Assembly: GCA_026692665.1 (NCBI GenBank)
Contig: JAPLOF010000026.1
Location: 1 to 64,000 of the forward strand
Reading direction: 5' to 3'
Source: Planctomycetota bacterium
GTDB taxonomy: Bacteria; Planctomycetota; UBA1135; GCA-002686595
Length of the DNA stretch: 64,000 bases
The notes beneath the pieces are model-generated. The model was not told where the DNA came from, searched no databases, and was given only the letters and a program-made list of their open reading frames with translations. Positions 45,257-51,003 of this stretch are shown here, piece by piece; positions within the stretch are counted from its first letter, which is position 1; every line of letters starts with the position of its first letter. The position numbers were made by a program, and so were the translations under genes.

Positions 45257-45625
45257 ACCACCACGCATTCGCCCGGCTCGGCGCGCGAGGAGCGCCTCGG
45301 ATCCCAGGTCCTCGAGTGCCCGGCATGCGCGTCGCTCGGCCATTCCGAGGACCCCGACCCCGCACGCGGTTTGCCGACGTGCCGATTCTGCCGGGCGCTC
45401 ACGCTCTTCCGGGCACCGCCCGCTGCGGTGCCTGGACCCACGGCGCGTCCCGAAGTGCCGCTGCCCAGCCGGAGGAACTGCGGCGCTGGCGCTGGGGGGG
45501 GGGGCTGCATGCACGAGCGGACTTCTCGGGCCTCCGGACGAATCCCAGGCGCAGCGAATCCGGCGCGCGAGCGCCGCCGAACCCCGGTTGACGGCGGCGC
45601 GCCGAGCGTGCACGCTGACCCTCCG
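45257..45625 (+). other. region before the his leader; possible zinc-ribbon gene fragment
   Basis: After a TAG at 45254, an open frame without an early start reads LECPACASLGHSEDPDPARG LPTCRFCRAL, two CxxC pairs like a zinc ribbon, then falls into low complexity around an 11-G run (45494-45504). It may be the decayed end of a gene or chance. The long G run could also be a sequencing or phase-variation site. A 12-bp palindrome AGCGTGCACGCT lies at 45605-45616. Confidence 0.25.
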
Positions 45626-45679
45626 ATGAACACGGCCCGCCATCTGCACCATCACCTCCACCCCGTCCGGGGCAGGTGA
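45626..45679 (+). CDS. hisL: candidate his operon leader peptide
   Basis: A 17-codon ORF: MNTARHLHHHLHPVRGR. Five of seven consecutive residues (6 to 12) are histidine, as in enterobacterial HisL peptides. It ends 33 bp before a hairpin (45712-45744) and 125 bp before hisG. In attenuation, scarcity of charged tRNA-His stalls the ribosome on such codons and lets the operon be read. It is too short for the ORF track. No good Shine-Dalgarno is seen before ATG 45626, which weakens the case slightly. Symbol given by analogy. Confidence 0.6.
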   Translation: MNTARHLHHHLHPVRGR

Positions 45680-45711
45680 AGCCGTGTAGATCGCGATCCA
45701 TCGACGAACAC

Positions 45712-45744
45712 GAGCGACGCCGGCCCCGAGGGTCGGCGTCGCTC
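45712..45744 (+). terminator. candidate his attenuator hairpin
   Basis: GAGCGACGCCG gccccgagggt CGGCGTCGCTC, an 11-bp perfect stem followed by GCATTTC, a weak T-run. Its loop bases GCCCCG can instead pair with CGGGGC at 45668-45673 in the leader ORF, and CCCCGAG can pair with CTCGGGG at 45771-45777, so alternative structures exist. Another stem, CTCGGGGCT with AGCCCGAG (45771-45803), ends on the base before hisG ATG. The arrangement fits attenuation, but no folding was computed. Confidence 0.6.
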
Positions 45745-45803
45745 GCATTTCACGCGGGTCAGGCGCCGCTCTCGGGGCTTCAACAAGAAGTCAGCAGCCC
45801 GAG

Positions 45804-46676
45804 ATGTCACCCACCACCACCGACTCCGTCCGCCTCGCGCTCCCCAAGGGGCGCATGCAGGACGCCGTACAGACGCTCCTCGCCGACGCCGGCCTGGCCG
45901 TGCGCCCGGGGGCGCGGAGCTACCGGCCCGAACTGCCGCTCGCGGGCTTCGAGACGAAGCTCCTGAAGCCCCAGGCCGTCGTGCACATGCTGCACGCCGG
46001 CACGCGGGACCTCGGGTTCGCGGGCGCCGACTGGGTCGCGGAGCTGGGGGCCGAGCTCGTCGAGCTCGTGGACACCGGCCTCGATCGCGTTCGCCTCGTC
46101 GCGGCCGCGCCGATGGGTTTCGTGCGCGACGGCGCGCTGCCGCGCCGGCCGCTGGTCGTCGCGTCGGAGTACGAGCGCCTCGCGAAGTCGTGGATCTCAC
46201 GGAAGGGGATCGACGCGACCTTCGTCCGCTCGTGGGGCGCGACCGAGGTCCTGCCGCCCGAGGACGCCGACGTCGTGGTCGACAACACCGCCAGCGGCGC
46301 GACGCTCGTCGCGAACGGGCTGGCCATCGTCGACGAGCTGCTCGCGAGCTCGACGCGCCTGTATGCCAGCCCGCGCGCGCTCGACGACTCCGCGAAGCGC
46401 GAGCGCATCGAGACCTTCGCGTTGCTCGTGCGCTCGGTGCTCGAGGCGCGCGAGCGCGTCATGGTCGAGGTCAACGTGACCGCGGAGCGGCTCGAATCGG
46501 TCTGCGCGGCGCTGCCGTGCATGCGCGAGCCCACGATCAGCCGGTTGCATGGCGAGGCGGGGTACGCGGTCCGCGCCGCCGTTCGGCGCAGCGAGCTCCC
46601 GCGCGTCGTGCCCGAGATCAAGCGCCGCGGCGGAACCGACGTCGTCGTGAGCGCGCTGGCGCAGATCGTGCCGTGA
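45804..46676 (+). CDS. hisG: ATP phosphoribosyltransferase, long form (HisG)
   Basis: A 290-residue HisG, first enzyme of histidine synthesis, joining ATP and PRPP. Landmarks: [50 protein letters not shown], and the PRPP loop [19 protein letters not shown]. The C-terminal about 75 residues ([20 protein letters not shown] to [15 protein letters not shown]) are the ACT-like histidine-feedback domain of the long form, so no HisZ is needed. First gene of the operon; its stop overlaps hisC (TGATG). Confidence 0.95.
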
Positions 46677-48986: not shown

Positions 48987-49732
48987 AGAAACGTGTCATC
49001 CCGTGCCTCGACGTGAGGGACGGCCGCGTCGTGAAGGGCGTGCGCTTCCAGTCCCTGCGCGACGCGGGCGACCCGGCCGAGCGAGCCGCGCTCTACGCCG
49101 AGCAGGGTGCGGACGAGATCGTCGTGCTCGACGTCTCGGCGACGCTCGAGCAGCGCGGCGCGCGGCTCGCCACGGTGGCGTCCGTGCGCGAGCGCCTCCC
49201 GATCCCGCTGACGGTCGGCGGCGGGATTCGCGACGAGGAGGGCGCGCGCGCTCTCCTGGAAGCAGGCGCGGACAAGGTGGCGCTGAACTCCGCCGCCGTC
49301 GTCGACCCGGGGCTCGTCGAGCGGCTGTCCGGACGCTTCGGCGCGCAGGCCGTCGTCGTGGCGATCGACGCAGCCCGCGTCGGTTCGGGCTGGCGCGTCG
49401 TCGTGCGCTCGGGGACCACGGCGACGGAGATCGACGCGATCGCCTGGGCGGTCGAAGCGGCGCGACGGGGCGCCGGCGAGATCCTGCTGACCGCCTGGGA
49501 TCGCGACGGAACGCGCTCGGGGTACGAGCTCGAGCTCATCGGCGCCGTGGCGCGCGCCGTGCGCGTGCCGGTGATCGCCTCAGGCGGAGCCGCCAGCGCG
49601 CGGCACATGGTCGAGGCGCTGCGGGCCGGCGCGGACGCCGTGCTCGCTGCTTCGATCTTCCACGACGGCGAGACGACCGTCGCTGACGTCCAACGGGTCC
49701 TGGCATCGGAAGGTTTGGAGGTGAGGACGTGA
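48980..49732 (+). CDS. hisF: imidazole glycerol phosphate synthase, cyclase subunit (HisF)
   Basis: A 250-residue TIM barrel. TTG 48980 gives [20 protein letters not shown], the normal HisF start, with GGGAGG seven bases upstream; GTG 48974 would add two residues. Catalytic Asp residues in CLDVRDG and ILLTAWDRDGTRSGYELELI; phosphate loops at TVGGGIRDEE and VIASGGAASARH. It makes IGP and AICAR with ammonia from HisH. Start overlaps hisH by 7 bp; hisAIE overlaps by GTGA. Confidence 0.93.
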   Translation: MLKKRVIPCLDVRDGRVVKGVRFQSLRDAGDPAERAALYAEQGADEIVVLDVSATLEQRGARLATVASVRERLPIPLTVGGGIRDEEGARALLEAGADKVALNSAAVVDPGLVERLSGRFGAQAVVVAIDAARVGSGWRVVVRSGTTATEIDAIAWAVEAARRGAGEILLTAWDRDGTRSGYELELIGAVARAVRVPVIASGGAASARHMVEALRAGADAVLAASIFHDGETTVADVQRVLASEGLEVRT

Positions 49733-51003
49733 TCGTTCCTTCGATCGACTTGCAGGGCGGACGGACGGTGCAACTCGTCGGCGGCCGGGAGATGGCGCTC
49801 GATGCCGGCGATCCGCGGCCGTTCGCGCGGCGCTTCGCGCGCGTCGGCGAGGTCGCGGTGATCGACCTCGACGCAGCGCTGCGGCAGGGGACGAACAGCG
49901 CGCTCGTCGAGGAGCTCCTGGCGCTCGCGCCATGTCGTGTTGGCGGAGGCATTCGCGACGTCGCGACGGCGCGCGCGTGGCTGGACCGCGGCGCCCGCAA
50001 GGTGATCCTGGGTACCGCGGCGCGGCCGGAGGTCCTGCGCGAGCTGCCGCGCGAACGCACGATCGCGGCCGTGGACTGCCTGGACGGCGAGGTCGTGATC
50101 GACGGCTGGCGCACGCGCACCGGCGTGCGCGCGGAGGATCGCCTGCGTGAGCTGGCCCCATTCGTGGGCGGCTTCCTCGTCACGTTCGTCGAGAGCGAAG
50201 GCCGTCTGCAGGGCATCGACCTCGAGCGCGTGGCGCGCTGCGTCGCGGCCGCGGCGCCCGTGCGCGTCACGGTCGCGGGCGGCGTCACCACGGTCGAGGA
50301 CGTCGCGGCGATCGACCGCCTGGGCGCCGACGCGCAGGTCGGCATGGCGCTCTACACGAACCGGCTGGGTCTCGCGGAGGCCTTCGCGGCCCCGCTCGCC
50401 AGCGATCGGGCTGACGGACTGTGGTCGACGATCGTGTGCGACGAGCGCGGAACCGCGCTGGGGCTCGCGTGGTCGGATCTGGAGAGCTTGCGGGAGGCGA
50501 TCGAGACCGGAGCGGGCGTCTACCGCTCGCGTCGCCGCGGTCTGTGGCGCAAGGGCGCGTCGACGGGCGCGACGCAAGAGCTCCTGCGCGTCGAAGTGGA
50601 CTGCGACCGCGACGCGCTGCGCTTCGTGGTGCGCCAGTCGGGGCCTGGGTTCTGCCACGCCGGTTCGCGGACGTGCTTCGGGCCGGCGTCGGGGCTCGCC
50701 GCGCTCGAGGAAACTCTGCGCGCGCGCGGCGTCAGCGCGCCGGGGGACTCGTACACCGGGCGCCTGCTGGCCGACCCGCGACTGCTCGCGGCGAAGCTAC
50801 GCGAAGAGGCGGGGGAGCTGGGAGCTGCTCGAACTCGAGCTGAGGTCGTGCACGAGGCTGCCGACGTCCTCTTCTTCACGCTGGCCAGGCTCGCAGCGGA
50901 AGGGGTCGAGCTGGCCGACGTGGAGCGAGAGCTGGACCGAAGGGCACTACGGATCACTCGGCGCGGTGGCGAAGCCAAGGTCGTCGACGGAGGTGGATCG
51001 TGA
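49729..51003 (+). CDS. HisA-HisI-HisE trifunctional fusion
   Basis: A 424-residue fusion of three histidine enzymes. Residues 1-225 are HisA (ProFAR isomerase, half-barrel repeats): VPSIDLQGGRTVQLVGG, VGGGIRDVATAR, IAAVDCLDGEVVI with the second Asp, TVAGGVTTVEDV. Residues 229-335 are HisI (phosphoribosyl-AMP cyclohydrolase): DGLWSTIVCDERG, YRSRRRGLWRKGASTGATQE, the metal site VDCDRDALRF and FCHAGSRTCFG. Residues 349-420 are HisE (PRATP pyrophosphohydrolase): LLAAKLREEAGEL and VVHEAADVLFFTLA. HisI-HisE fusion is common; adding HisA in front is not, to my knowledge. It thus catalyses steps 2, 3 and 4. The HisI part has the GFCH form I associate with fungal HIS4. GTG start; overlaps hisF and hisD. 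Confidence 0.92.
   Translation: MIVPSIDLQGGRTVQLVGGREMALDAGDPRPFARRFARVGEVAVIDLDAALRQGTNSALVEELLALAPCRVGGGIRDVATARAWLDRGARKVILGTAARPEVLRELPRERTIAAVDCLDGEVVIDGWRTRTGVRAEDRLRELAPFVGGFLVTFVESEGRLQGIDLERVARCVAAAAPVRVTVAGGVTTVEDVAAIDRLGADAQVGMALYTNRLGLAEAFAAPLASDRADGLWSTIVCDERGTALGLAWSDLESLREAIETGAGVYRSRRRGLWRKGASTGATQELLRVEVDCDRDALRFVVRQSGPGFCHAGSRTCFGPASGLAALEETLRARGVSAPGDSYTGRLLADPRLLAAKLREEAGELGAARTRAEVVHEAADVLFFTLARLAAEGVELADVERELDRRALRITRRGGEAKVVDGGGS

Follow-up and report, generated by a model that had tools for sequence, protein, structure and literature searches.

A probable leaderless, ribosome-mediated attenuator before the histidine operon of a planctomycete, and related leaders before tryptophan and lysine genes

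Background

Leader-peptide attenuation of lysine biosynthesis is known from Thermus, where a leader rich in Lys codons precedes genes of the aminoadipate pathway. The his attenuator of enterobacteria (Rfam RF00514) combines a leader peptide with His codons, a terminator and a competing antiterminator before the first his biosynthesis gene, and ribosome-mediated his attenuation is established in Proteobacteria and related groups. His leader peptides have also been described before hisS and hisZ in bacilli, and to the knowledge of the authors in 2010 leader-peptide systems had been reported solely from Proteobacteria and Actinobacteria before their Bacillus case (Naville and Gautheret 2010, PMC2965389). 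A leaderless attenuator ORF is provided by trpL of Sinorhizobium meliloti (rnTrpL/peTrpL), in which the 5' end of the RNA is the ATG (PMC7298713). No leader-peptide attenuator from a planctomycete was found in the open-access literature, although the survey of Lopatovskaya et al. (cited in PMC4833913) lies outside that search, so that an earlier prediction may exist.

Here we analyse a stretch of 64 kb of planctomycete DNA (hereafter the window, to which all coordinates refer) in which a region upstream of hisG shares with the enterobacterial system the leader peptide with His codons, the competing antiterminator and the place before the first his biosynthesis gene, together with a putative terminator. 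It differs from RF00514 in that its leader ORF lacks a Shine-Dalgarno sequence and probably starts at the promoter, its terminator core (ACGCCGGCC...GGCCGGCGT) is often followed by a weak U-tract, its pause hairpin is not conserved, and its first gene is a long-form hisG. The window yielded no match to RF00514. A search of 23 genomes, among them that of the window, all with hisG and most with the leader, gave none above the cut-off either, while an E. coli control was positive. The probably leaderless leader ORF, here suggested by promoter spacing only, recalls S. meliloti trpL, yet that system concerns Trp in Alphaproteobacteria, whereas His, Trp and Lys versions are found in Planctomycetota. 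As in bacilli, a His-codon leader with a terminator occurs outside the Proteobacteria, but the bacillar ones precede hisS/hisZ; and as in Thermus, a Lys-codon leader stands before lysine genes, in a different phylum.

We consider it highly probable (roughly 0.9) that the his operon leader is a classical transcription attenuator, mediated by the ribosome and probably run from a leaderless message. The original prediction had proposed that attenuation logic operates in a probable planctomycete, and the wide occurrence of His-rich leaders, the conserved terminator and the covarying antiterminator reported below all speak for it. Beyond that prediction, the probable leaderless start, the anatomy shared with trp and lys genes and the weak U-tract of the window are new.

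The leader ORF and the histidine operon

The following features, all on the plus strand, define the coding part of the locus:
45626..45679, plus strand: leader ORF MNTARHLHHHLHPVRGR, probably leaderless, without a Shine-Dalgarno sequence
45641..45661, plus strand: regulatory codons CAT-CTG-CAC-CAT-CAC-CTC-CAC, 5 His of 7, an HHHH-type run being kept in relatives
45804..46676, plus strand: hisG, for a long-form ATP phosphoribosyltransferase that scores above cut-off with NCBIfam TIGR00070 and TIGR03455
46676..52241, plus strand: remainder of the operon, comprising hisC, hisB, hisH, hisF, a hisA-hisI-hisE fusion and hisD

A His-rich leader ORF of 17 codons had been predicted before hisG and is indeed present, running from an ATG at 45626 to a TGA at 45677-45679 with the product MNTARHLHHHLHPVRGR. 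No other short ORF on either strand of the 64 kb reaches 5 His in 7 codons, and when the 250 nt preceding hisG were shuffled 20,000 times by mononucleotide, such an ORF arose only once. The genes that follow are ordered hisG-hisC-hisB-hisH-hisF-(hisA-hisI-hisE fusion)-hisD. The fusion (49729-51003) joins hisA, hisI and hisE in a single protein of 424 aa, with the Pfam domains His_biosynth, PRA-CH and PRA-PH each above cut-off.

Occurrence among relatives

hisG genes were gathered from the family, order, class and phylum of the window and from named genome contigs, giving 75 loci, a few of which duplicate others. Conservation of the His codons, whose absence from close relatives would have told against the original prediction, is extensive: a His-rich leader, recognised as a short upstream ORF in which His codons are closely packed, occurs in 62/75 loci, and the complete anatomy in 57. 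A covariance model built from 47 of the leaders (R1) matches before hisG in 31 of the 34 hisG-bearing genomes of the window's order, the three lacking a detected leader being G063, G140 and G141; four genomes outside the training alignment (G105, G065, G066 and G126) score 5e-12 to 5e-5. Among genomes without this hisG, only G067 has an R1 match with E < 1e-4. There, a leader (MRLMSSWHHHRISKSLAGPGSVAPWKQ) and terminator (locus L103) precede a HisH-like gene, a name assigned by eye, and no HisG was found in that genome. Weak R1 matches at L104, L105 (the end of a ribosomal L34-like ORF), L107, L109 and L111 were judged to be chance.

The leader is also present in records bearing the names Gammaproteobacteria, Myxococcales, Gemmatimonadetes, Spirochaetota and Bacteroidetes; as these are metagenome-assembled genomes (MAGs), this points either to transfer of the operon together with its leader or to wrong names for some of them. 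The attribution of the window to a "probable planctomycete" is strengthened by identities between loci: L045, from the window's order, is identical to L028, deposited as Planctomycetota bacterium Prado171, and two further loci of the phylum (L072 and L067) equal L031 and L025, whose records are likewise named Planctomycetota.

Histidine synthesis seems to be patchy in the window's family, in which HisG (Pfam PF01634) was detected in only 19/81 genomes, with 13/14 control genomes positive; the same search found no HisG in G041, a member of the window's own genus. Two further observations concern individual relatives. A CTGATGGATC-like stretch recurs between leader stop codon and terminator at L059, L062, L064, L070 and L071, all from family f10 of the phylum, and a c-di-GMP-I riboswitch (RF01051, 57.7 bits) lies at 785-879 of L031, about 2 kb upstream of hisG, in a planctomycete MAG.

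Alternative helices between leader and hisG

Between the regulatory codons and hisG, four elements can be delimited:
45668..45685, plus strand: segment B, 5' strand of the antiterminator, overlapping the leader stop codon and pairing with the 5' arm of the terminator
45711..45728, plus strand: segment C, 5' arm of the terminator with the first loop bases, also 3' strand of the antiterminator
45734..45745, plus strand: segment D, 3' arm of the terminator, in a helix that covaries
45746..45752, plus strand: weak U-tract CATTTCA, under the threshold of the terminator scan

The stem-loop that had been described as 11 bp long and 33 bp beyond the ORF is real, but its dimensions differ: the hairpin has 12 perfect GC-rich pairs (arms 45711-45722 and 45734-45745, -34 kcal/mol), begins 31 nt 3' of the leader stop codon, and is extended by the minimum free energy (MFE) fold to 16 pairs with a 3-nt loop. 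Its reading as a terminator stands as regards the hairpin, which is conserved and covarying, and is weaker as regards the U-tract, since the T run in the window is only TTT (45748-45750) and a standard scan consequently returned no terminator at threshold there. Relatives L023, L026, L040, L047 and L058 have clear T runs after the same hairpin. The proposed pairing of loop bases with bases of the leader ORF was also recovered, as a B:C core of 6 bp between CGGGGC (45668-45673) and GCCCCG (45723-45728, in the arm and loop of the hairpin), which is shorter than that of relatives and off the consensus register.

In the alignment of 47 leaders, on which the covariation tests were made, B (GGGUCGG-like) lies directly 3' of the His codons and extends into the stop codon, and the two arms of the terminator are C (CGCCGGCCC-like, 5' side) and D (3' side). 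The C:D helix is paired in 91.9% of cells, with 19 double-change cells and 6 pairs that changed on both sides, and its covariation score was reached in 0/500 shuffles. For the B:C antiterminator, 85.1% of cells are paired, against 38-51% when the segments are slid, and the score was again reached in 0/500. Compensatory changes are apparent at alignment columns 60 and 137 (C-G, U-G or U-A) and between whole segments, which read GGGUCGG/CCGACCC in L045 and L005, GGAGCC/GGCUCC in L014 and L016, and UUGGCCGG/CCGGCCA in L040. Across 51 loci, B:C complementarity exceeds that of dinucleotide shuffles (mean z -1.48, p = 9e-14), while a linker control against C was not significant. Antiterminators composed of a locus's own segments are more stable than swapped ones (mean -20.3 against -19.0, p = 0.002), a modest gap that is small because all C arms look alike. 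A pause hairpin A:B was also considered, but with 58.6% of cells paired it did not exceed slid or shuffled controls.

Folding that would forbid the switch was looked for and not encountered, alternative B:C and C:D pairings being available in all 57 fully parsed loci. RNAalifold returned the terminator alone, as expected for mutually exclusive helices. On average, with D still to be transcribed, the C arm is expected to form 11.0 pairs with the RNA upstream of it when the ribosome is placed on the His codons and 3.6 when it is placed at the stop codon, a difference in the same direction in 56/56 loci, which partly reflects the greater amount of upstream RNA available in the former state; the median distance from the first His codons to the stop codon is 39 nt. 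In the window, the terminator prevails in the MFE fold when the leader is modelled with its ribosome stalled at the His codons, and the switch would therefore have to be kinetic, chosen during transcription, as it is in classical systems.

That a short ORF rich in His and a hairpin rich in GC came together by chance between genes of high GC content, without regulating anything, might be entertained because hairpins are common at high GC, yet the rarity of the ORF in shuffled sequence and its conservation with covariation across relatives leave this explanation with almost no credibility.

The promoter and the start of the leader message

Upstream of the leader ORF, two promoter elements were identified:
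45588..45593, plus strand: -35 element TTGACG, which contains an exact TTGAC, 38 nt upstream of the leader ATG
45611..45616, plus strand: -10 element CACGCT (weak), after a 17-nt spacer, ending 9 nt before the leader ATG

A promoter scan of the window returned no site at threshold, because the -10 CACGCT is poor even though TTGACG is present; the spacing of this -10 equals that of TACCGT in L002. Comparison among relatives is more informative. In the 80 nt that precede the leader start, an exact TTGAC was counted 39 times over 56 loci, and in 36/56 loci it lies at 34-40 nt, where about 0.3 would be expected in all (approximately 0.006 per locus); the spacing is retained in 35/56 under a rule for choosing start codons that is blind to promoters. 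Of the best -10 hexamers of relatives, 50/56 have A at position 2 and 52/56 have T at position 6, and the -10 usually ends 6-10 nt before the leader start codon. From these spacings, transcription should begin at or just before the AUG or GUG. Moreover, no motif resembling a Shine-Dalgarno sequence precedes the leader ORF in any of the 56 loci. Promoter spacing and the lack of a Shine-Dalgarno sequence together suggest that the leader ORF is probably leaderless, that of the window included despite its weak -10.

The hairpin at the hisG start codon

The original prediction also placed a further stem at the hisG ATG, and one was found:
45771..45803, plus strand: second hairpin E:F (-12.3 kcal/mol), directly adjoining the start codon of hisG

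In 27/51 loci a hairpin of -8 kcal/mol or lower stops 1-6 nt short of hisG, whereas elsewhere in the same leaders the share is 2-31%; some start codons in this comparison had been picked with an eye to the fold. Arm E resembles segments B/D and is complementary to C (E:C mean z -1.14), and arm F resembles C and is complementary to D (F:D mean z -1.56). These properties, along with the weak U-tract of the window, would suit an arrangement in which leader and hairpins act mainly on the translation of hisG, the start-codon hairpin hiding the initiation site and the upstream hairpin serving only as a weak pause or stabiliser. We regard this as improbable, given the unmistakable U-tracts of the five relatives named above, the presence of such hairpins at generic GC-rich ORF starts about as often (45%), and their near absence from trpE starts that have the same attenuator (1/16). 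A less improbable but still unlikely elaboration is an attenuator of two levels, with five segments complementary to one another, in which C and F (GCCGACC-like) would be contested by B, D and E (GGGUCGGC-like), the ribosome on a leaderless leader ORF would gate transcription past the terminator, and E:F would add a coupled translational gate at the hisG AUG. The generic-ORF control and the absence at trpE also weaken the case for E:F as a firmly regulatory element, and it is a candidate only. Transcription attenuation remains our preferred reading of the locus.

The same design before tryptophan and lysine genes

In the window's order, equivalent anatomy also stands before trpE, where the codons are those for Trp, and before lysine genes, where they are those for Lys. 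Trp-rich leaders were parsed automatically at 16/30 trpE loci of the order, and inspection by eye added another three (L130, L134 and L141). The loci at which a Trp-codon leader and terminator precede trpE are L117, L118, L120-L123, L130, L132-L141, L144 and L145, and at several trpE leaders -10 boxes end 6-9 nt before the leader start. R1 additionally matches Lys-rich leaders before homocitrate synthase (L108, MSVRFTNKAKKPSPLGMAMAYVG; L110, MSNFNINVASKSKAKLYPLWVR) and before a LysX-like gene, named by eye (L106, MFTRTSKAKKIKLCPRGVG), and a protein search added the Lys-rich leader of L116 (MNTFRKDKSLKAKPGHRAWQAPF). At these four loci the Lys-codon leaders are followed by the same type of terminator and stand before lysine genes of the aminoadipate/LysW type. 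Homocitrate synthase, assigned from LysS-type best matches below the curated cut-off, is present in 3/154 genomes of the order and is therefore too rare for statistics on the Lys version. The window's own genome (G000) gave no match to the trpE N-domain or to homocitrate synthase.

This recurrence bears on whether a T-box or riboswitch-like RNA might sense tRNA-His or histidine directly, with the short ORF incidental. T-boxes control his genes in other phyla, one having been proposed in Corynebacterium glutamicum (PMC3896937), but in each of the his, trp and lys cases a dense set of codons for the amino acid concerned has been conserved upstream of the genes, the leader RNA is about 120 nt long, and no Rfam family, T-box included, reached the gathering threshold in the window or was plausible in the leader. 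Direct sensing by RNA is consequently very improbable. A minus-strand Rfam match to ybhL (21 bits against 50) was judged to be chance.

A model for the switch

Under the attenuator reading, transcription would start at or next to the leader AUG, and the leader peptide would be translated from a leaderless message. With ample His-tRNA, the ribosome would reach the UGA and cover B, the C:D terminator would form, and hisG would not be transcribed. With His-tRNA scarce, the ribosome would stall on the His codons, leaving B free to pair with C as C emerges; with C held by B, D would stay unpaired and RNA polymerase would read into hisGCBHF-A/IE-D. These little-studied bacteria very probably use, then, the classical switch in which ribosome stalling turns genes on when an amino acid is short. 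Sequence and its comparison among relatives show the His codons, two alternative helices (B:C and C:D), the spacing of the promoter, the lack of a Shine-Dalgarno sequence and the gene order, whereas the transcription start, the stalling, the termination and the response to histidine are inferred. Several points weigh against an attenuator, namely the TTT tract, the poor -10 and the 6-bp B:C core of the window, its terminator-favouring MFE fold, the unsupported A:B hairpin, the three genomes with hisG and no detected leader (G063, G140 and G141) and the modest effect of swapping.

Implications

The comparative evidence is good for an extension of classical amino-acid attenuation to Planctomycetota, where one attenuator design appears to have been reused for histidine, tryptophan and lysine. 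If the leader ORF is leaderless, loading of the ribosome that does the sensing would take place at the extreme 5' end of the message and would involve no Shine-Dalgarno sequence. Planctomycete cell organisation has been debated; a working attenuator needs ribosomes on nascent RNA, and transcription-translation coupling would thus become directly testable in Planctomycetota.
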